Shown: one piece after another, positions 390-14,803 of the stretch
Numbering within the stretch: position 1 is the stretch's first letter
Layout of the letters: the number at the start of each line of letters is the position of its first letter
DNA from: Clostridiales bacterium
GTDB lineage: Bacteria > Bacillota > Clostridia > Saccharofermentanales > Saccharofermentanaceae
NCBI GenBank assembly: GCA_017612755.1
Contig: JAGAFH010000194.1
Location: 1-14,803 of the forward strand
Reading direction: 5' to 3'
DNA: 14,803 nucleotides
Position numbers and translations under genes: made by a program
The notes under the pieces: generated by a model
Told to the model about the DNA's origin: nothing
The model's database searches: none
What the model saw: the letters and a program-made list of their open reading frames with translations, nothing else

Positions 390-416
390 CAAGGTCTTTA
401 AGACGGAGGTCTTTTG

Positions 417-3400
417 ATGGAAAAACTGAGCGTAAAAAAGCCTTTTACCGTACTTGTCGCAACGATAATCATCATTGCGATGGGCTTTGTTTCGCTCACC
501 CATCTCTCCATGGACCTTCTTCCGGAGATCGACCTTCCCTATCTTATCGTTATAACCGCATATCCCGGAGCCAGCCCCGAAAAGATCGAGGACTCCGTTA
601 CCGTACCCATCGAAAACACCCTGGGTACCATCAACGGCATCAAGAACGTGTCTTCCACCAGTTCCGAGGACTACTCGGTAGTACAGCTGGAATTTGAAGA
701 CGGCACCGATATGAACGCGGCCACGGTCCGAGTGTCCGGAGCCCTCAACCAGCTGGAGTCTTCCCTTCCTGACGGAGCCATGACACCCAGCATCCTGGAG
801 ATCTCCCTGGATATGTTCGCCACCATGTATGTGGCGGTAGAAAAGGACGGCTACGATATATATGAACTTACAGACTTTGTTAACTACGAAGTCATTCCCT
901 ATATCTCAAGACAGGAAGGCGTCGCCAGCGTCACCACCGTAGGTCTGGTGGAAAAGAGCATCCAGGTGGAACTCAGCCAGGACAAGATCGATGCCCTCAA
1001 CGAGGACATCCTTCAGAAGACCAACGACTCCCTGGCAGATGCCCAGGAGATGCTGGACGATGCAAATGAACAGCTGGAAGATGCCCAGGCAGAACTTGAT
1101 TCAGCACAGGCAGGATTCGGAAATACTTTATCATCTACGCTCTTTTCCCAGCTGAACCTTCAGTCGGGAGATATGGCAGATGACCTGAAGGACGGCATAT
1201 CCCTTCTGAGGCAGCGGCTTTCCGCCTTAAGCTCAGGCCTGGATTCCGCCAGTACAACTGCAGATTCATCCCTGGCTACAGCCCAGGAAAATGTGGATGA
1301 TACCCTGGAGACATTAAATGCGGCCATCAAGCTTCAGACTGATGCCCAGGAGATCCTGACAGCCGCCCAGGAAAATGCGGATACCACCCAGGCAAACCTG
1401 GATGCCGCCACCTTCGCCCAGGATTCGGAAGAATACCTGGCACTTCTCCAGACTGTGACAGATGCCCAGACGGACCTTCAGCTGGCCCAGGATACTTACG
1501 ACCAGGCTTCCGAAGAAGTGGCTTCCGCCCAGACCGCCTACGACAGCGCGGTAGCGGCGCTGACCCAGGCTTCCATGGAAGGCCTCGGACTTACGCCGGA
1601 GCAGGCCGCCACCCTTATGGAAGATATCGCTGACCTGAATGATGACTTGAGCGACGCCTCCGACAACATCAACGGAGATACGGTGACAGATCTTGTCAGC
1701 ACGACCACAAACCTGGCAAGCCTTCTGGCAAGAGCTTCAAATATAATCACCCAGATCAGAAATGCCGACCCTCTCGGAACTATGGCCGATTCCCTGGACA
1801 ATGCGGATTCATCCCTTTCCGGAGTCAGTGATATGGTGGATTCCATCCCTGAGATGATCACGGGACTTCAGACCATGACTTCAGGTCTTACCCAGGCCCA
1901 GCTGGATGCGGCAGTCGCCTTCTCTACAGCTTCCGTACAGCTCTCGGATGCCAGGACACAGCTGGATGCTGCCCAGGCCCAGTATGATGCAGCAAGGGAG
2001 GAAGCTCTCAAGAGCGCAAACGTAGACGACTTTATTACTCCCCAGACACTTTCCCAGCTTATATATGCCCAGAACTTCTCCATGCCTATCGGATATATCG
2101 ATGACGAGGAAGATAACTCCTGGCTCCTCAGAGTGGGAGACGAGTTCGGAAGTGCGGAAGATATCGCCTCCTCCCTTCTTATGGACAATGACATTATCGG
2201 TACAATAAGGCTGGAGGATATCGCCGATATCACGGTGATTGACAATGCCGATGACAGCTATACGAAGCTCAACGGATCAGACGGCATCATCCTCTGTATC
2301 TACAAATCATCCAGCGCAGGAACAAATGACGTTTCAAAACTCTGTAATAAAGCCTTCGACACCCTGGCGGAGGATAACCCGGGGATGCACACCATCAATC
2401 TGGTGGACCAGGGAGTCTACATCTCCATGATCGTGGAGAGCGTTTTCCAGAGCATCATCATAGGCGCCCTACTGGCCATAATCATCCTGGCCATCTTCCT
2501 TAGGGATGTGAAACCGACTATCGTAGTCGCCATCTCCATTCCCCTTTCCGTACTCCTGGCTATAGTCCTTATGTACTTTACGGGACTGGAACTTAATATG
2601 ATGACATTGTCGGGCCTGTCCCTGGGTATAGGAATGCTGGTAGACAACTCGGTAGTCGTAATGGAGAATATCTTCAGGCTCAGGGGAAGGGGACTTCCCG
2701 CGCCCAGGGCCGCAGTACAGGGAGCAAAGCAGGTCAGAGGCTCCATCATCGCCTCTACCCTTACCACCATCTGTGTATTCTTCCCTGCCGTTTTCGCTAC
2801 GGGAACGGTCAAATCTCTTCTCTATCCTCTGGCCCTTTCGGTAGGCTACTGTCTGGTGGCTTCCCTTGTTATCGCCATGAGCGTAGTGCCGGCTTCCTGT
2901 TCCACTATCATGAAAAACACCACCCCCAAGGAGCATAAGCTTTTCGACAAGGTACTGGGGGTTTACGGCAAGAGCCTTTCCTGGTGCCTCAGATTTAAAG
3001 TAGTGCCCCTCATCATAGCCGTATCCCTTCTGGCCTTCTCCGTTTATGAAGTACTCCGGATGGGTATCGTATATATACCGGAGATAACGACTAACGAACT
3101 TAACATAACCATCGTCACCCCTGAGGAGATGACCCGTGAGGAGTCTTATCTCAAAGTTGACGAGATAATGGATGATATCCTTTCCGTTCAGGGCATAAAC
3201 GATATCGGTATCATGGACTCCGGAAGCACCACCAGCTTCCTGATGGCAGGTCTTTCCGACGACTCTTACGGGACATATGTATGCTACGCCCTGGCCGATG
3301 AGGGAGCCTCAGCCGAAAAGATGGCCCAGATCAGTTCAGATATTGAGAGCGCCACCTCAGATTCCGGATGTAAGATCACGGTCGAGACAGACTCCATGGG

Positions 3401-4700
3401 ATCCATGTCGTCCATGATGGGATCTTCCGGAGTATCGGTCCTGATCTACGGCAATAACTATGACGAACTTGAGCGGATCAGCGGAGATGTAAGGGAGATC
3501 TTAGAAGGACAGGAAGGACTTACCAAAGTGAGGGATTCCTTCGGCGAGGGAGATCCCACCCTTCAGGTCATCGTCGACCGTGACGCCGCCATGAGATATG
3601 GTCTTACGGTAGCCCAGATCTATGCCGGAATCGCAGGTCACACTTCCACATCAGTCACAGCCACCACCGTCACCATCGACGGCACCGAGATGAAGGTCAA
3701 TATCGTAGACAATACAGATACCATCACAAAAGAAGACCTGATGGATATAGAATTCGAAGAAGTGGATATGACCGGAGGAGCTGATACGGCCGACTATTCC
3801 GATATGGCTTCCGCCTTTGAGGATATGACGGAAGATGATGAGACTGATGAAGCTGAAGAAGAGGCCGCAGAAGAGGAAGAGGAGGAAGAAGAGAGCAAGA
3901 TCCACACCCTTTCAGAGTTTGCGGAAGTCATAGAGACCACATCCTCATCCTCCATCTCGAGAGAGAACCTCACCAGATATGTAACTGTTTCCGCTTCGGT
4001 GGAAGAAGGATATAATGCGACCCTTATCTCAAGAGAGCTGGGACCTAAGCTCGATGATTACAACGAGACCCTGGACAGAGGTTACTCAGTTGAGATCTCC
4101 GGCGAGTCCACGGAAGTCATGGAGATGGTAGTCCAGATGCTGGAGATGGCGGCTCTTGCCCTCCTGTTCATCTACCTGATCATGGTAGCCCAGTTCCAGA
4201 GCCTCCTGTCGCCCCTTATCATCCTGTTCACTATCCCCCTTGCCTTTACAGGAGGTCTTATCGGACTTCTTATTACAGGCATTCCCCTGTCCATGCTGTC
4301 CCTTCTGGGATTTGTCGTGCTGATGGGAACAGTCGTTAATAACGGTATCGTTTTCGTCGACTATGTAAACAGGCTCCGTATCGGCGGCCTTGAGAGAAGA
4401 GAGGCCCTTGTGGCCACAGGTATCACCAGGATGAGGCCTATCCTGATGACGGCCCTTACCACCATCCTCGCCATGTCCATGATGATCTTCGGATCCGGAA
4501 TGGCTTCCCAGCTGGGACGGGGAATGGCAGTGGTCATTGCGGCCGGACTTCTTTACGCCACCTTCATGACACTTTACATCGTACCCGTAATGTACGATAT
4601 ACTCTTTAAGAAGCAGCCCCTGGACGTAGATGTAGGTTCCGACATCGATGAGGCCATAAACGATGCGGCAGATTACCTTCAATCACATGCAAAAGCCTGA
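417..4700 (+). CDS. RND-family efflux transporter permease with long coiled-coil insertion
   Basis: A 1427-residue inner-membrane transporter of the RND superfamily (AcrB/HAE1-like). TM1 is at about residues 9-30, followed by a porter-type loop (YPGASPEKIED, residues ~50-60). TM2-TM6 begin near residue 671, and the C-terminal TM bundle runs from ~1240 to the end. The TM4 signature reads GMLVDNSVVVMEN, with D743-N744 where AcrB has two Asp. The TM10 site has N1308-N1309, where AcrB has Lys-Asn. Between ~199 and ~545 the first extracytoplasmic loop carries a ~345-residue Ala/Gln/Asp-rich helical insertion, so the protein is far longer than the usual ~1040 residues. A Glu-rich tract lies at ~1140-1160 in the second loop. 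I chose ATG 417 because GGAGGT at 405-410 is spaced six bases from it; a TTG codon at 414 sits too close. No adaptor (HlyD-type) or outer-membrane partner gene is nearby. Substrate unknown; drugs, lipids or peptides are possible. Confidence 0.93.
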   Translation: MEKLSVKKPFTVLVATIIIIAMGFVSLTHLSMDLLPEIDLPYLIVITAYPGASPEKIEDSVTVPIENTLGTINGIKNVSSTSSEDYSVVQLEFEDGTDMNAATVRVSGALNQLESSLPDGAMTPSILEISLDMFATMYVAVEKDGYDIYELTDFVNYEVIPYISRQEGVASVTTVGLVEKSIQVELSQDKIDALNEDILQKTNDSLADAQEMLDDANEQLEDAQAELDSAQAGFGNTLSSTLFSQLNLQSGDMADDLKDGISLLRQRLSALSSGLDSASTTADSSLATAQENVDDTLETLNAAIKLQTDAQEILTAAQENADTTQANLDAATFAQDSEEYLALLQTVTDAQTDLQLAQDTYDQASEEVASAQTAYDSAVAALTQASMEGLGLTPEQAATLMEDIADLNDDLSDASDNINGDTVTDLVSTTTNLASLLARASNIITQIRNADPLGTMADSLDNADSSLSGVSDMVDSIPEMITGLQTMTSGLTQAQLDAAVAFSTASVQLSDARTQLDAAQAQYDAAREEALKSANVDDFITPQTLSQLIYAQNFSMPIGYIDDEEDNSWLLRVGDEFGSAEDIASSLLMDNDIIGTIRLEDIADITVIDNADDSYTKLNGSDGIILCIYKSSSAGTNDVSKLCNKAFDTLAEDNPGMHTINLVDQGVYISMIVESVFQSIIIGALLAIIILAIFLRDVKPTIVVAISIPLSVLLAIVLMYFTGLELNMMTLSGLSLGIGMLVDNSVVVMENIFRLRGRGLPAPRAAVQGAKQVRGSIIASTLTTICVFFPAVFATGTVKSLLYPLALSVGYCLVASLVIAMSVVPASCSTIMKNTTPKEHKLFDKVLGVYGKSLSWCLRFKVVPLIIAVSLLAFSVYEVLRMGIVYIPEITTNELNITIVTPEEMTREESYLKVDEIMDDILSVQGINDIGIMDSGSTTSFLMAGLSDDSYGTYVCYALADEGASAEKMAQISSDIESATSDSGCKITVETDSMGSMSSMMGSSGVSVLIYGNNYDELERISGDVREILEGQEGLTKVRDSFGEGDPTLQVIVDRDAAMRYGLTVAQIYAGIAGHTSTSVTATTVTIDGTEMKVNIVDNTDTITKEDLMDIEFEEVDMTGGADTADYSDMASAFEDMTEDDETDEAEEEAAEEEEEEEESKIHTLSEFAEVIETTSSSSISRENLTRYVTVSASVEEGYNATLISRELGPKLDDYNETLDRGYSVEISGESTEVMEMVVQMLEMAALALLFIYLIMVAQFQSLLSPLIILFTIPLAFTGGLIGLLITGIPLSMLSLLGFVVLMGTVVNNGIVFVDYVNRLRIGGLERREALVATGITRMRPILMTALTTILAMSMMIFGSGMASQLGRGMAVVIAAGLLYATFMTLYIVPVMYDILFKKQPLDVDVGSDIDEAINDAADYLQSHAKA

Positions 4701-4781: not shown

Positions 4782-6758
4782 ATGCCAACTACTAACGAAG
4801 ATTATCTTAAAGCCAGGAAACTGGGAAACAAGGAATATCAGAAGGCCTTAAGCGAAGGCCACTATCCTTACCTGCCCGCTCTTGACTATATGGTGGGCAG
4901 CAGGACTACCATGATCGAGGAATCCGTGGGAACAAGGGAGATCCCTCTGTATCTCGTAGTCGGTACCGAGACAAAAGGCCGTCAGGACGCTTTTGCCAGA
5001 AACTTCATGCCTCTCTTAGGCCCTGAGACGGAGTTCGCCGCCAAGTGGATGAGCCTTATGAACTACCAGACGGAGCACGGTATCGACGATGCCATCAAGG
5101 TCACCGAGTTCATGGGCAAGTTCTATGTTGGCGAGGGAAACAAAAGGGTATCTGTCCTTAAGTTCCTGGAGCAGCCCACTATCCTTGCGACAGTAACAAG
5201 AGTACTGCCTCCCAAGTCCGACGACCCGGAGGTGATCATCTACTACGAATTTCTTAAGTTCTTCAAGTGCACCTCTATATACGACATTACCTTCTCCGAG
5301 CCCGGCTGCTACGACAAACTGGCGGAAGCCATGGGAAAGGACCTGGAGGAACCCTGGGACGAAGATACGCTCATGGATCTTAAGTCCGCATTCTATAACT
5401 TCACCCTTGCATATCTGGCAGGGGGCGGAAAGACCTTGTCCATCACGGTAGGAGATGCATTTCTTATCTATATCGGCATCTACAAATACGAGAGCCTGAT
5501 AAACACTCCTCCCGATGAGATCAAAAAGAATCTCACCCCCATCTGGCAGGAGATCAGGATCAAGGCCAACGGTGACCAGATAGCTTTCTCCGAGGAGCCC
5601 CAGCTTCAGAAGAAGAATGCGATCCCCATCATCGACACCCTCATTAAGAAGCCTTCCTACAGCGAAAAGAACCCTCTTAAGGTGCTTTTCCTCTACGAGG
5701 GAGATTCCAATAAATCCAGATGGGTAAACGGCCATGAAGAAGGAAGAAAATATCTGGAGGCCGCTTTCCCCGGCATAGTTAAGACCCTTACCTGCGAATG
5801 CAGCGTTGAAGAGGAGGAGTTCGACGAAGCTATCGATGCGGCAGCTGATGACGGCGCAGATCTTATCATCACCACCTCCCCGGTCCAGATGGAACCGGCC
5901 CTGAGCGCCGCCGTAAGACATCCCAACGTGAAGTTCCTGAACTGTTCCGTACATCTGTCCCACGGTCTTGTGAGGACTTACTACGGAAGGATGTACGAAG
6001 CCAAGTTCGTACTGGGAGTCATCGCCGCCACCCTGGCAAAAGACCACAGGATCGGATATGTATCCACCTATCCCATCTGCGGCAATATCGCCAACATAAA
6101 CGCCTTTGCCATCGGAGCCCAGATGATCGACCCCGAAGCAAAGATCTATCTCACCTGGTCCTGCCTTAAGGAGGGATACTGGAGAGAGTACATAAAGGAA
6201 AACGATCTGAGACTTGTGTCGGGACCTGACCTTATCAAGCCCCAGAACAAGAGCGATAACGAGTATGGCCTATATTCCGTTGACGACAACGGAGAGATAA
6301 CCAACCTGGCCTTCCCGGTCTGGAACTGGGGTAAGTACTACGAGCTCATAGTCCAGACTATCCTGAATAATGCCTGGGATGCCGAATCGGCTACCGGGGA
6401 AGGAGATGTTAAGGACAAGGCTGTCAACTACTGGTGGGGCATGACCTCGGGCGTTATCGACGTATTCCGCTGCGACACCATCCCCTATGCCACCAATAAG
6501 ATGGCATCGGCCATAAGAAAGACTATAACAGCTGATATCTGTAATCCCTTTGACGGAGAGCTCAGATCCCAGGAAGGCATAATAAAAAATGCCACAAGTC
6601 CCAGGCTTTCCAACGAAGAGATCATCAACATGAACTGGCTCAATGACAATGTCATAGGTTCCATTCCGACTTTCGAGGAGTTGACCGAAAATGCCCAGAA
6701 GACAGTTAAGGCCAACGGAATGCCTATCGTCGGAAGAGGAGGATCTGCAGCAACATGA
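4782..6758 (+). CDS. Cytoplasmic ParB-like / BMP-family (PnrA-like) fusion protein
   Basis: A 658-residue protein with two recognisable parts. Residues ~50-150 look like a ParB/Srx-type fold: a conserved LVVGTETKGRQDAFARNF stretch (57-74), then FYVGEGNKRVSVLKFL (114-129), close to the ParB box that reads G-x-R-R-x-x-A in classical members. A helical linker with an aromatic-rich segment follows (150-290). From K300 (KVLFLYEGD) to about 640 the sequence follows the BMP/PnrA/Med periplasmic-binding fold (PF02608), including a DDGADLIITTSP segment and a repeat around GVIAATLAKDHRIGYV. Known BMP proteins are lipoproteins that bind nucleosides for ABC import; this one has no signal peptide, no lipobox Cys and no transporter genes beside it, so it is probably cytoplasmic. 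The ATG is supported by AGAAGGGA at 4767-4774. It overlaps the phosphoesterase gene by 4 bp. I recall similar full-length proteins in Clostridia annotated only as BMP-family; the role is unknown to me. Confidence 0.85.
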   Translation: MPTTNEDYLKARKLGNKEYQKALSEGHYPYLPALDYMVGSRTTMIEESVGTREIPLYLVVGTETKGRQDAFARNFMPLLGPETEFAAKWMSLMNYQTEHGIDDAIKVTEFMGKFYVGEGNKRVSVLKFLEQPTILATVTRVLPPKSDDPEVIIYYEFLKFFKCTSIYDITFSEPGCYDKLAEAMGKDLEEPWDEDTLMDLKSAFYNFTLAYLAGGGKTLSITVGDAFLIYIGIYKYESLINTPPDEIKKNLTPIWQEIRIKANGDQIAFSEEPQLQKKNAIPIIDTLIKKPSYSEKNPLKVLFLYEGDSNKSRWVNGHEEGRKYLEAAFPGIVKTLTCECSVEEEEFDEAIDAAADDGADLIITTSPVQMEPALSAAVRHPNVKFLNCSVHLSHGLVRTYYGRMYEAKFVLGVIAATLAKDHRIGYVSTYPICGNIANINAFAIGAQMIDPEAKIYLTWSCLKEGYWREYIKENDLRLVSGPDLIKPQNKSDNEYGLYSVDDNGEITNLAFPVWNWGKYYELIVQTILNNAWDAESATGEGDVKDKAVNYWWGMTSGVIDVFRCDTIPYATNKMASAIRKTITADICNPFDGELRSQEGIIKNATSPRLSNEEIINMNWLNDNVIGSIPTFEELTENAQKTVKANGMPIVGRGGSAAT

Positions 6759-7360
6759 AGATCTTAGTAGTCGCAGACATCGAAGACAGACGTCTCTACG
6801 ACTTCTTCCGGAAAGACCGGGTGGAGGGAGTTGAGCTCATCGTCTCCTGCGGAGATGTTAAGAGTGACTACCTGGATTTTCTCATGACTATGGTAGGCGC
6901 CCCCATGATCTACATTATGGGTAACCACGACGATGATTTTATAAAGAAGCCCCCTCTGGGCGGCATCTGTATCGAAGATAAGATCTACAGGTTCAAAGGA
7001 TACAATTTTGCCGGTCTGGGCGGATGCCTCCGTTATAACAACAGGGTCAAGAATATGTACTCCCCTTTTGATATGAACTTCAGGGCTTCAAGACTTGCCG
7101 CCAAGTCCGCCTTAAGAGGAGGTATAGATGTTCTGGTGACCCACGCTCCCGCCAAGGGATACGGGGATCTGGAAGACCTGCCCCACAGGGGATTCGAAGC
7201 ATTCAACAGGCTTATGAAGATCACAATGCCCAGGTATATGGTCCACGGCCATGTCCATAAGAATTATGCCATGAACGTAAAGACTGAGACGGTCCACGAA
7301 AGCGGCACCGTCATCGTAAATGCCTACGGTTACCAAATAATAGAATTGCCGGATAAGTAA
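6755..7360 (+). CDS. Calcineurin-like metallophosphoesterase, YfcE/MJ0936-like size
   Basis: A 201-residue single-domain phosphoesterase. The metal-binding blocks appear in the right order: D8-x-E10 near the N-terminus (normally D-x-H), GDV at 33-35, GNHD at 56-59, THAP with H130, and HGHVH at 164-168. The only departure is Glu in place of the first-block His. I recall other Clostridia members of this subfamily with an acidic residue there, so it is probably a subfamily trait and not a broken gene. The enzyme likely hydrolyses a phosphodiester or phosphomonoester in the cytoplasm; the substrate cannot be read from the sequence. Its ATG overlaps the stop of the ParB-like/BMP gene (ATGA), with GGAGG at 6738-6742 twelve bases upstream, so translation is likely coupled. 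This close pairing suggests a shared ligand, possibly a nucleoside or nucleotide. Confidence 0.9.
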   Translation: MKILVVADIEDRRLYDFFRKDRVEGVELIVSCGDVKSDYLDFLMTMVGAPMIYIMGNHDDDFIKKPPLGGICIEDKIYRFKGYNFAGLGGCLRYNNRVKNMYSPFDMNFRASRLAAKSALRGGIDVLVTHAPAKGYGDLEDLPHRGFEAFNRLMKITMPRYMVHGHVHKNYAMNVKTETVHESGTVIVNAYGYQIIELPDK

Positions 7361-7449: not shown

Positions 7450-7494
7450 AAAACAGGGAATCCTTCCGCTATTGCGGAAAAGATTCCCTGTTTT
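7450..7494. terminator. strong bidirectional Rho-independent terminator
   Basis: A long hairpin with an outer 13-bp arm pair, AAAACAGGGAATC (7450-7462) and GATTCCCTGTTTT (7482-7494), and an inner 6-bp stem TTCCGC/GCGGAA (7464-7469 and 7474-7479) around a TATT loop. The arms end in A-run and T-run, so it terminates in both directions. It separates the plus-strand RND/BMP/phosphoesterase genes from the convergent minus-strand genes and lies 28 bases past the stop of the esterase gene. Confidence 0.88.
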
Positions 7495-12055: not shown

Positions 12056-14803
12056 TTACCTCTTAAAGAACCCGAACAGTCCGCCTCTGGAAGATCCGTT
12101 GTCTTCAGAAGGAGCAGGCTCCTGCGGAGCGCTGTTGTGCTTGAAAGGGTCGATCTCCGGCTTGGTCTTTTCCGCAGGGATAGGAGCCAGAGGAGTAAAT
12201 GTCTTTCTTACGGGAGCAGGCGCTTCCTCAAGACTGGGAGCAGCAAGAGCGGCTGTAAGACTGATCTTCGCAGGTTCTTCAACCTTCGGGGAAACAGCCT
12301 CGGGCTGATGTTCTGCCTCAGCCTTCATGGCAGCCGCATGGTTGACTGATGCGCTGGCAGGTCTCTTGATGGGAGCCTTAAGTCCGTTGGGTGCTGTATC
12401 ATCCTTGCTGCTGATAGGCTTGAAAGGAGATTCCTCCTTCTTTATGGGCATGACACCGTTGAAGATGCCTACGACAGGTACATGGTTAGCAGGAGCAGAA
12501 GGAGCGGGTGCGGGAGTTTCAGGTTCTGCCTCTTCCTCTGCGGGAGCCGCAAAGGGAGATCCGTTGTGAGGCCTCTTGATGGGGGCCTTCTGGGCGGGCT
12601 TGAAAGGATTTGCTCTTTCAGGCTCTTTCTTTTCGATGACAGGAGGCACTATCGCAGTAGCAATGGAAGGTGCATACTCCTGGTTCTCCAGCTGCTTTCT
12701 GAAAGTGACGGCTGCAGCAGTGCTGGGCTGGGATCTGTCAAAGACGATCTCGTCAGCAGATCTGCATCCGGACAGGGGTTCTTCCCTGACCTTATTCTCC
12801 AGGGATTCGCCTGTGGGATTGATGGGAGTGGAAGGCGTTGCGATCCTCTTTTCTGAGGACGATGAGGCAGCCTTTCCTACACGCATGGGAGATCTGGTAG
12901 GAGCCGCAGGTTCTGCACTCCTGGAAGGAGCTGCAGGCTTAGGAGTCTCAACTGCCTTGGCAGGTGCCGGTGCTGCGGGCCTGGGGTTCGAAAAGGGACT
13001 GGGAGATGCAGAAGAGTCCTTACGTGCAAAAGGGGAAGGACGGTCTTCCTTATCTTCTTCAGGCGCTTTAGGAGCCATGGGCTTAAAGGGAGAAGGTGCG
13101 CCGGGATCTCTCTTTGCAAAAGGCGAGCCGGCTGAAGGAGTGACCGGAGCTGCTGCAGGTGCAGCAAAAGGCGACGGTGCGGCCGAAGGTTCAGCTGAAG
13201 GTGCAGGACGGTTGAAAGGCGATCCTGCAGATGCAGTGATCCCCGAATCCGTGCTCTGTGTCTGTGTCTTCTCCTCAGCTCCTGCAGCCATTGCTACAGT
13301 CCTGTTGGAGGACATGCTCTTAGGTCTCTTGATGGGGGGCTTGGGAGCAGGTCCTGAAGTCTTGATCACCGGTTTATCTGCGTTCATTCTTGTACTGTCC
13401 GACGGACCTTTATCAGAGGGGTCCGTCTTCCTTTCTTCTTTTTTCTCTCCCTCTGCTTCAGCGGCTGCTGCCATTGCAACAGCTCTGTTGGAAGACAGGG
13501 ATTTGGGTCTCTTGATAGGTGCTTTCAGCCCGGGGGCTGCAGATGTGGTCTTATTGGCTGCTGCCTTTTCGGCAGCTTTCTTCTTGGCAAGTTCGGCAAG
13601 TTCTGCTGCAGACTTTTCTCCGACCTTTGCAGCTCCTCTGGGAGCGGGCTTGGAAAGAGCCGGCTTAGATGCAGCCTTGGGAGCCGTCTTAGGAGCTTCC
13701 GTCTTCTGCTCAACTATTCCGGCAGCTGCGGAAGCAGCGGCAGCCTCGGCGGCCTTTGCAGCCTCCCGTGCAGCAATTGCTTTCTCCTCAGCCTTGATCC
13801 TGGCCATTTCAGCCATCTCGGCAGCTGTCTTGTTTCCTACATTGGCCGTGCCCTTAGGCTTGGATACGGGAGCTGCAGGCTTGGTCCCTGCAGGAGCGGC
13901 GCCCTTAGATACGGGAGCAGCTGTCTTGGCAGGTGCGGAGGAAGGCCTCTTGATGGGAGCCTTAAGTCCGTTATATGCAGGAGTTCCTGAAGAAGACGAA
14001 GGCTTCATCTCCTTATCGGCAGCCCTGGCAGCAGGTGTATTGGAATACATGGGTCTGATAGACGCAGTATTGGATTTCTTGAGATAACCGTTCACCACCT
14101 CAGGGCCGTCAGCCTGGGGTATGGGTGTACCCTTGGAAGGACGTATCTTCTCGGCAACAGTTCCGATGATCCCTCCGGGAATGAAATAATAAGCGATGTC
14201 CTTGCCGGACATTTTCTCTTTCTTTAGCTGGCGGTATCTGAATACGCATGCCCCGAGAAGAGCCAGCACTACCAGGATCCACCAGGGGAAACGGAAGTTT
14301 CCGTCTTCATCCACAGGCTTGAGCATTCCTGCAGCCTTGGGATAATGGGTAGGTGTGGGAGTAGCTGTTACTTCGGAACCGTCCTCAGCTATAACGATGA
14401 TGGGCTCCTCTGTTTCAGAAGTCTCAGCCGCATCAGATGTTTCAGATGTCTCTGATGTCTCAGAGGTCTCGGATGTTTCGGAAGTAGCAGATGTCTGTGT
14501 CGTCTCTACTGCATCCTCGTCATCGTCATCATCATCCTCGTCGTCGTCATCATTGGACGAACTGCTGTTTCCGGAATCAGCGGGAACAGGAGTATTTGTA
14601 GCCGCTGCCGTAGTAGGCTTAGGCGTATTAGTAGGCTTGGGAGTATTCGTAGCCGTCGCAGGCTTAGGTGTAGGGGTATTTGTAGCCGTAGGCTTGGGGG
14701 TGTTGGTAGGTGTTGGATCAGGATCATCTATATCGAGATCAGTGATATAAGCATCATACAAGTCATCGCAACTGTCATTTTTACCAATGTATATACCATA
14801 TGC
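12056..14803 (-). CDS. Membrane-anchored surface protein with long repetitive cytoplasmic tail, 5' end outside window
   Basis: The frame is open to the window edge, giving at least 915 residues; a TTG at 14761 lacks a ribosome binding site and residues upstream of it (YGIYIGKNDSCDD) look like the end of a folded domain, so the real start is outside. Read from the N-terminus: a Thr/Pro stalk (14588-14714), a Ser/Asp/Glu run (14514-14556), SET repeats (14413-14496), a single membrane helix beginning WWILVVLALLG (about 14240-14284), then basic RYRQLKKEK, implying the stalk is outside and the tail inside. The tail is about 720 residues of Ala/Pro/Ser/Lys-rich, probably disordered sequence. It carries five PIKRP motifs, ten [SND]PF motifs, two VGxKxAAE(L/M)AE(L/M)A segments and a final GLFGFFKR. 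I do not recognise the missing N-terminal domain. Trypsin-like or other sensor domains are known ahead of similar stalks in Lachnospiraceae, but nothing here proves it. Confidence 0.8.
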   Translation of the reverse strand, partial: AYGIYIGKNDSCDDLYDAYITDLDIDDPDPTPTNTPKPTATNTPTPKPATATNTPKPTNTPKPTTAAATNTPVPADSGNSSSSNDDDDEDDDDDDEDAVETTQTSATSETSETSETSETSETSDAAETSETEEPIIVIAEDGSEVTATPTPTHYPKAAGMLKPVDEDGNFRFPWWILVVLALLGACVFRYRQLKKEKMSGKDIAYYFIPGGIIGTVAEKIRPSKGTPIPQADGPEVVNGYLKKSNTASIRPMYSNTPAARAADKEMKPSSSSGTPAYNGLKAPIKRPSSAPAKTAAPVSKGAAPAGTKPAAPVSKPKGTANVGNKTAAEMAEMARIKAEEKAIAAREAAKAAEAAAASAAAGIVEQKTEAPKTAPKAASKPALSKPAPRGAAKVGEKSAAELAELAKKKAAEKAAANKTTSAAPGLKAPIKRPKSLSSNRAVAMAAAAEAEGEKKEERKTDPSDKGPSDSTRMNADKPVIKTSGPAPKPPIKRPKSMSSNRTVAMAAGAEEKTQTQSTDSGITASAGSPFNRPAPSAEPSAAPSPFAAPAAAPVTPSAGSPFAKRDPGAPSPFKPMAPKAPEEDKEDRPSPFARKDSSASPSPFSNPRPAAPAPAKAVETPKPAAPSRSAEPAAPTRSPMRVGKAASSSSEKRIATPSTPINPTGESLENKVREEPLSGCRSADEIVFDRSQPSTAAAVTFRKQLENQEYAPSIATAIVPPVIEKKEPERANPFKPAQKAPIKRPHNGSPFAAPAEEEAEPETPAPAPSAPANHVPVVGIFNGVMPIKKEESPFKPISSKDDTAPNGLKAPIKRPASASVNHAAAMKAEAEHQPEAVSPKVEEPAKISLTAALAAPSLEEAPAPVRKTFTPLAPIPAEKTKPEIDPFKHNSAPQEPAPSEDNGSSRGGLFGFFKR
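12143..13222 (-). repeat. Ten [SND]PF short motifs in the cytoplasmic tail
   Basis: Between these positions the tail contains eight SPF, one NPF and one DPF tripeptide, mostly followed by Lys, Ala or Asn and then Pro or Arg (SPFKP, SPFAAP, NPFKP, DPFKH). Spacing is irregular, from about 14 residues within the densest part to over 100. They look like short linear binding motifs and not a folded repeat. Confidence 0.7.
12359..13969 (-). repeat. Five PIKRP motif repeats in the cytoplasmic tail
   Basis: PIKRP is encoded at 13943-13957, 13505-13519, 13322-13336, 12569-12583 and 12359-12373. Three copies extend to the same order, PIKRP-x-S-x-S-x-N then A-M-A/K-A and an acidic end, about 25 residues. 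Four are preceded by KA, and three of these by GLKA. The nucleotide sequence is similar but not identical between copies, so these are old duplications held by selection. Confidence 0.8.
14413..14496 (-). repeat. 9-bp degenerate tandem repeat encoding SET triplets
   Basis: About nine tandem 9-bp units resembling GATGTCTCA on the plus strand encode repeated Glu/Asp-Thr-Ser on the minus strand. Third-position changes between units keep the amino acids nearly constant. The array is in frame in the extracellular stalk, so slippage would change length by whole triplets and not break the gene. Confidence 0.75.
14588..14714 (-). repeat. Thr/Pro/Lys stalk repeat
   Basis: Repeated words of the form GTATTNGTAG and GGCTTNGG on the plus strand encode TNTPKPT-like units on the minus strand, followed toward the membrane by a Ser-rich and Asp-rich run at 14514-14556. 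Such Pro/Thr linkers typically span the Gram-positive wall, often O-glycosylated. The composition is seen; the role is inferred. Confidence 0.75.

Follow-up and report, generated by a model that had tools for sequence, protein, structure and literature searches.

A predicted ParB/sulfiredoxin-like domain fused to a BMP domain without an export signal, and its pairing with an atypical metallophosphoesterase

Contig JAGAFH010000194.1 of a Clostridiales bacterium (assembly GCA_017612755.1), whose whole 14,803 nucleotides are referred to as the window, carries two overlapping genes on its forward strand. The first encodes a fusion protein in which a predicted ParB/sulfiredoxin (Srx)-like domain precedes a BMP ligand-binding domain, and the second encodes a metallophosphoesterase (MPE). 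The source genome belongs to Clostridia and comprises 1.83 Mb in 240 contigs, at 70% completeness; Saccharofermentans sp. and other clostridia from the rumen and gut are the closest named relatives. As the original prediction stated, the two open reading frames share an ATGA overlap, and reading of the translation confirmed GEGNKR at residues 117–122 of the fusion. A purine-rich, ribosome-binding-like stretch lies before each start, and the overlap suggests translational coupling of the two genes. The features of the locus are collected in Table 1.

Table 1. Coordinates of the fusion gene, the metallophosphoesterase gene and their features in the window.
Feature	Position	Strand	Size or basis
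Fusion gene: ParB/Srx-like domain, helical linker and BMP domain, without signal peptide	4782–6758	+	658 aa
Predicted ParB/sulfiredoxin-fold domain, residues 46–144	4917–5213	+	Predicted model
Box I, residues 61–67 (G61-T62-x-T64-x-G66-R67)	4962–4982	+	Joint alignment
Box II, P-motif-like, E118-G-N-K-R122	5133–5147	+	[ED]-G-[NH]-[KH]-R in 57/57
Helical region, residues 150–265	5229–5576	+	No clear fold match
BMP (PnrA/AtzT-like) ligand-binding domain, residues 296–629	5667–6668	+	Pfam; span approximate
Ribosome-binding-like AGAGGAGG ahead of MPE start	6735–6742	+	Sequence
ATGA stop/start overlap of fusion and MPE	6755–6758	+	Sequence
Metallophosphoesterase, motif I D8-x-E10 replacing D-x-H	6755–7360	+	201 aa; Pfam, alignment
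Strong hairpin 3' of MPE	7450–7494		Within a 76-nt stretch, -33.2 kcal/mol, z -7.6

Residues 1–290 of the fusion have no Pfam match. The predicted model of the protein has a pLDDT of 89–90, and its fold comparison, set beforehand as a test of the proposed N-terminal ParB/Srx fold, returned ParB, Noc, KorB, PadC, Srx, SerK or SbnI in 32 of the 36 top rows for residues 46–144. We aligned 57 sequences jointly, comprising 39 BMP fusions, 11 long relatives whose tails bear Cys, two minimal and five short proteins. G61, [ST]62, R67, [ED]118, G119, [NH]120, [KH]121, R122 and V123 are invariant among them, and residue 118 is Asp in all 18 aligned non-BMP relatives. In a wide alignment, E118, G119 and R122, which make up the GxxR P motif with its preceding acid, are each kept in 119/119 sequences, and at residue 120, where ParB has its catalytic Glu, 117 sequences have Asn and two have His. 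We take this Glu of the GERR motif to be the residue responsible for hydrolysis in ParB. The corresponding boxes read A-G-E-R-R in ParB, D-G-H-H-R in DUF1015 and E-G-N-K-R in the window family; the exact DGHHR string occurs in 11 of 20 sampled DUF1015 sequences.

The predicted ParB fold and the GxxR motif would fit a ParB-like, cytidine triphosphate (CTP)-dependent DNA clamp that has a ligand domain as an accessory. However, the hydrolysis Glu is replaced (N120) and the acid of the SerK and DUF1015 type is retained (E118), and the Pfam scan of the fusion gave only Bmp above cut-off, with no helix-turn-helix (HTH) or ParB C-terminal dimerisation domain. For these reasons the clamp is extremely unlikely, and we rejected it. 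The acid-G-x-x-R pattern without the catalytic Glu suggests phosphotransfer or tight binding of a nucleoside triphosphate (NTP) instead, as in the SerK and Srx proteins.

Pfam PF02608 matches residues 300–459 of the fusion (E 4.5e-18), a part of the BMP domain as delimited in Table 1, and the predicted fold is likewise that of the BMP/PnrA solute-binding proteins. The current database name, 'BMP family ABC transporter substrate-binding protein', would point to a misannotated exported transport protein. In order to examine the export signal, we compared 81 family rows, of which 80 have intact starts and L031 is cut, over their first 60 residues with 16 ordinary BMP proteins that the same search found in related genomes. 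The maximum 19-residue hydropathy is 1.2 across the family rows, in contrast to 1.69–2.76 in the controls; a signal-like hydrophobic stretch is absent from the 80 intact starts and present in 16/16 controls. A single loose lipobox pattern was found in 1/81 family rows (L107, without a hydrophobic stretch) against 16/16 controls. Moreover, the Pfam scan revealed no ABC permease genes among the window neighbors; of the 80 ranked loci described below, where permeases were not sought by profile, 19 have an ABC-ATPase cluster somewhere within 9 kb. An exported transporter is scarcely credible given the absence of a signal-like start in the family, and we rejected it. The sequences support the idea, originally proposed, that the fusion carries no export signal, and it is likely cytoplasmic.

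A nucleoside had been suggested as the ligand. W314 occupies the stacking position of AtzT Tyr45 in 119/119 sequences, but for AtzT Ser97, Glu165, Trp194, Asn218 and Asn220 the wide alignment shows positions that vary or fail to align, without a conserved counterpart. W467 appeared to be the counterpart of Trp194 in the close set; it is found in only 49/117 sequences of the wide set and was discarded. Because these base-reading residues are unconserved, we dropped the nucleoside as a demonstrated ligand. Compared with the BMP-family solute-binding proteins AtzT and Brucella BMP 3s99, the BMP domain of the fusion also differs in sitting behind a ParB-like domain and in having no signal peptide. 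AtzT itself retained guanine through purification.

The MPE matches Pfam Metallophos_2 (E 1.8e-9; 38.2 bits against a cut-off of 27). D8, D34, N57, H58, H130, H166 and H168 are invariant in a 35-row alignment, in which six of the seven usual metal-ligand positions are unchanged. In these respects it is like the calcineurin-like MPEs YfcE, MPPED2 and Dbr1, although it falls far under the YfcE cut-off (22 vs 56 bits). The difference lies in motif I, where E10 is found in 70 of 79 MPEs at the place of the His of other MPEs; D-x-E also occurs in the convergent copies described below, and the motif is D-x-E, D-x-V, D-x-I or D-x-R in relatives that adjoin non-BMP partners.

We next consider the pairing of the two genes across genomes. 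Among near relatives, the MPE gene is adjacent in 13/13 loci with room for it, the window's own included, and one further locus is cut. A ranked GTDB scan found at least 590 stretches encoding a relative, and we analyzed the best 80, which partly overlap the near-relative loci. An MPE gene follows downstream on the same strand in 78/78 testable loci, with gaps of at most 159 bases; the other two end at a contig edge. Lachnospiraceae, Collinsella, Olsenella, Solobacterium and Mogibacterium are named carriers in this set. Opposite-strand ORF clusters over the fusion or the MPE gene (54, 38, 20 and 15 loci) were set aside as antisense frames. A third conserved gene was rejected, since no flanking family of these 80 loci exceeds 5/77 upstream of the fusion or 5/74 downstream of the MPE.

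An unranked class sample of 391 genomes holds the full-length fusion in 39 genomes at 41 places, all of which were examined; a partial match of 375 residues (G582) was excluded from the count. The MPE gene is adjacent at 37 of 40 testable places, so that the expected conserved neighborhood is found in both samples. The layouts are 16 downstream on the same strand (one, in G541, with a 457-base gap), 20 convergent tail-to-tail, one upstream on the same strand, three unlinked and one at a contig end. In each of the three unlinked cases, the genome encodes an MPE elsewhere. Both genes occur together in 38 genomes, the fusion alone in one, where the gene runs off the contig, the MPE alone in three, including a weaker match (G527), and neither in 349. 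The Fisher value for this co-occurrence is 4e-48; it takes no account of how related the genomes are, and we do not read it as a probability. In a rapidly built LG+G4 tree that raised long-branch warnings, the gene arrangement would need five changes, a rough figure. A paralogue clade of 616–630 residues (L179–L182) occurs in genomes that also hold the main fusion-MPE pair; by eye, an apparent MATE-type exporter gene lies alongside it in two of them.

Two phosphodiesterases, MPPED2 (E 5e-6) and the lariat debranching enzyme (E 5e-5), are the best PDB matches of the MPE profile. These matches favor a role in nucleotide or RNA damage processing, in which the MPE would act as a phosphodiesterase belonging to the MPPED/Dbr1 branch, with the ParB-like protein as its NTP-dependent partner and the BMP domain as a sensor of a purine-like product. 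A DUF402 gene directly upstream of the fusion at 9 of the 41 class-sample places points the same way; its family includes NtdP, named nucleoside tri-diphosphate phosphatase in NCBIfam. Three DUF402 genes were identified by Pfam scan and the rest by their profile. One of the three belongs to G653 (L226), where the MPE and the upstream DUF402 gene are present and the fusion is absent, as though through gene loss. However, the likeness to MPPED2 and Dbr1 lies mainly over C-terminal metal motifs common to many MPEs. The DUF402 gene is confined to one lineage (L228, L183, L226 and seven further loci), and its NtdP match reaches 20.8 bits against a cut-off of 280, with SA1684 as the nearest solved relative (E 0.019). 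We regard damage processing as quite improbable. An anti-phage defense pair is very unlikely: the PADLOC model PDC-S10 matches the MPE at E 5.2e-15, and box II has a weak match to PD-Lambda-5_A at E 1.4e-4, but PDC-S10 is a candidate model only and may be a general MPE model, and the ranked loci have no conserved neighbor family.

The MPE family is not bound to BMP. In a phylum sample of 398 genomes, the N-domain profile gave 26 matches, two of which (L135, L136) were judged chance; five are BMP fusions, 13 are non-BMP proteins with an adjacent MPE gene and six lack one. The 13 (L116–L126, L131, L134) have a Cys-bearing or 4Fe-4S tail or are minimal. A Pfam scan of four of them (L116, L121, L122, L124) found 4Fe-4S domains in three and weak DUF4032 matches in three; L116 has a four-Cys tail without a 4Fe-4S match. 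The converse search, starting from the MPE, found its clade in 25 of the 398 genomes (E 5e-60 or better), and a ParB-like partner is adjacent in 20: five BMP fusions, 13 long proteins with 4 to 10 Cys and two minimal ones of about 200 residues. The original prediction had placed BMP at the center of the arrangement, which these pairings contradict. The constant core is the ParB/Srx-like domain plus the MPE, and BMP looks like one exchangeable input domain.

Five short ParB-like proteins of 125–170 residues (L127, L128, L130, L132, L133) carry a DGHHR box, and four of their five genomes have an unlinked MPE. In a search from a 4Fe-4S member, most of the matches P0250–P0360 join this ParB-like domain to ligand-binding domains of the Lrp/AsnC type (PF01037); the named carriers are mostly Deltaproteobacteria, with one Anaerolineae.

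The pairing survives operon, reversed and convergent layouts as well as exchange of the C-terminal domain, which argues for a functional partnership of a ParB fold and a phosphoesterase. Since other lineages with this MPE family have Cys-rich or 4Fe-4S tails or none, BMP would be the input module and the MPE the common output. Tentatively, and short of calling it probable, we propose that the two genes form a cytoplasmic ligand-sensing, NTP-binding switch acting with the MPE. From the observed genes, the missing export signal, the near-invariant residues and the pairing, together with the predicted folds, we infer the following steps. Inside the cell, a small molecule would be the ligand of the BMP-fold domain, and an NTP that of the predicted ParB/Srx-fold domain. 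According to section 9 of a 2025 ParB-fold survey (PMC12704722), nucleotide preference is not reliably predictable from sequence or AlphaFold3. Ligand in the BMP cleft may alter the NTP state of the ParB-like domain, by analogy with the periplasmic-binding-protein folds that gate LacI and PurR, where the output is an HTH; here it would be the ParB-like domain and a separate MPE. The NTP state, in turn, may switch the MPE on or off or supply its substrate.

A constant relay and MPE with a variable input make the C-terminal domain exchange, in our opinion, the best mechanistic clue. A wider scheme, possible and rather doubtful, is modular signaling, in which a ParB/Srx NTP-binding relay with its own atypical MPE serves exchangeable sensors: BMP for a metabolite, as in the window, 4Fe-4S for redox and possibly Lrp/AsnC-type domains in other phyla. 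A serious rival, unlikely in our estimate, is an opposed enzyme pair, in which the ParB/Srx domain, as a small-molecule kinase like SerK, would phosphorylate the BMP-held ligand and the MPE would remove the phosphate. However, if the kinase substrate were fixed, the C-terminal domain would not be expected to vary, as it does, among lineages that share this MPE family. By range, in a rough alignment, residue 63 may face the catalytic E30 of SerK; it is not conserved and is mostly Lys (28/39), not Glu.

Several observations weigh against the proposed switch. Sequence similarity to ParB is weak: PF02195 (ParB_N) matches 3 of 39 members at E<=1, the best (0.062) under the Pfam cut-off, and hhalign gives a probability of 10.8% for ParB and 0.3% for DUF1015. 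The BMP pocket could bind other ligands or be structural, in view of its unconserved base-reading residues, and MPE activity is not assured because motif I is without the canonical His. As for the pairing, the four members of the paralogue clade and the G611 fusion have no adjacent MPE. The six unpaired phylum matches, mostly short ParB-like proteins, have none within the 1–1.5 kb covered. Five of the 25 phylum MPEs are without an adjacent partner, four of them in genomes with a short ParB-like gene elsewhere, and in the fifth genome (G059) the N-domain profile found none. Of the original interpretation, the predicted ParB/Srx fold, the MPE adjacency and the lack of an export signal stand, while the nucleoside ligand and the BMP-specific pairing do not.

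Neighboring genes of the window, by Pfam, encode an RND permease, an esterase, an SCP2-like protein, an ABC-F protein and an SDR protein. The RND permease gene (414–4700, +) ends upstream of the fusion gene, 81 bases from its start; by eye, its product has a long Gln/Asp/Ala-rich, coiled-coil-like insert in the N-terminal half (residues ~200–530). The hairpin downstream of the MPE gene is likely a terminator between two convergent genes. Positions 12056–14803 (-) encode a long protein rich in Pro, Ala and Ser; it likely has one membrane segment, and its low-complexity tail holds five copies of an [AP]PIKRP motif.

The fusion resembles the ParB-CTPase/sulfiredoxin fold proteins ParB, Noc, Srx, SerK and SbnI in the predicted fold of residues 46–144 and in the GxxR P motif. 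It differs from them in its score under the PF02195 cut-off, its replaced catalytic Glu, its BMP partner and its dedicated MPE. The 2025 survey covers fusions and was queried with PF02195 (PMC12704722); in its main text, 'BMP', 'periplasmic' and 'phosphoesterase' have zero occurrences each. The window family was probably missed there, because it scores under the Pfam cut-off for PF02195. Our literature searches found no description of a ParB-like/BMP and MPE pair. The pair is encoded in many gut and rumen bacteria, and a system of such build is without description in the literature searched. With this pair, the repertoire of the ParB fold reaches beyond chromosome segregation, and a large gene group named as transporter proteins in databases likely has a non-transport role. 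With 658 and 201 residues, the two proteins make up a compact system, whose NTP, ligand and substrate are directly testable.
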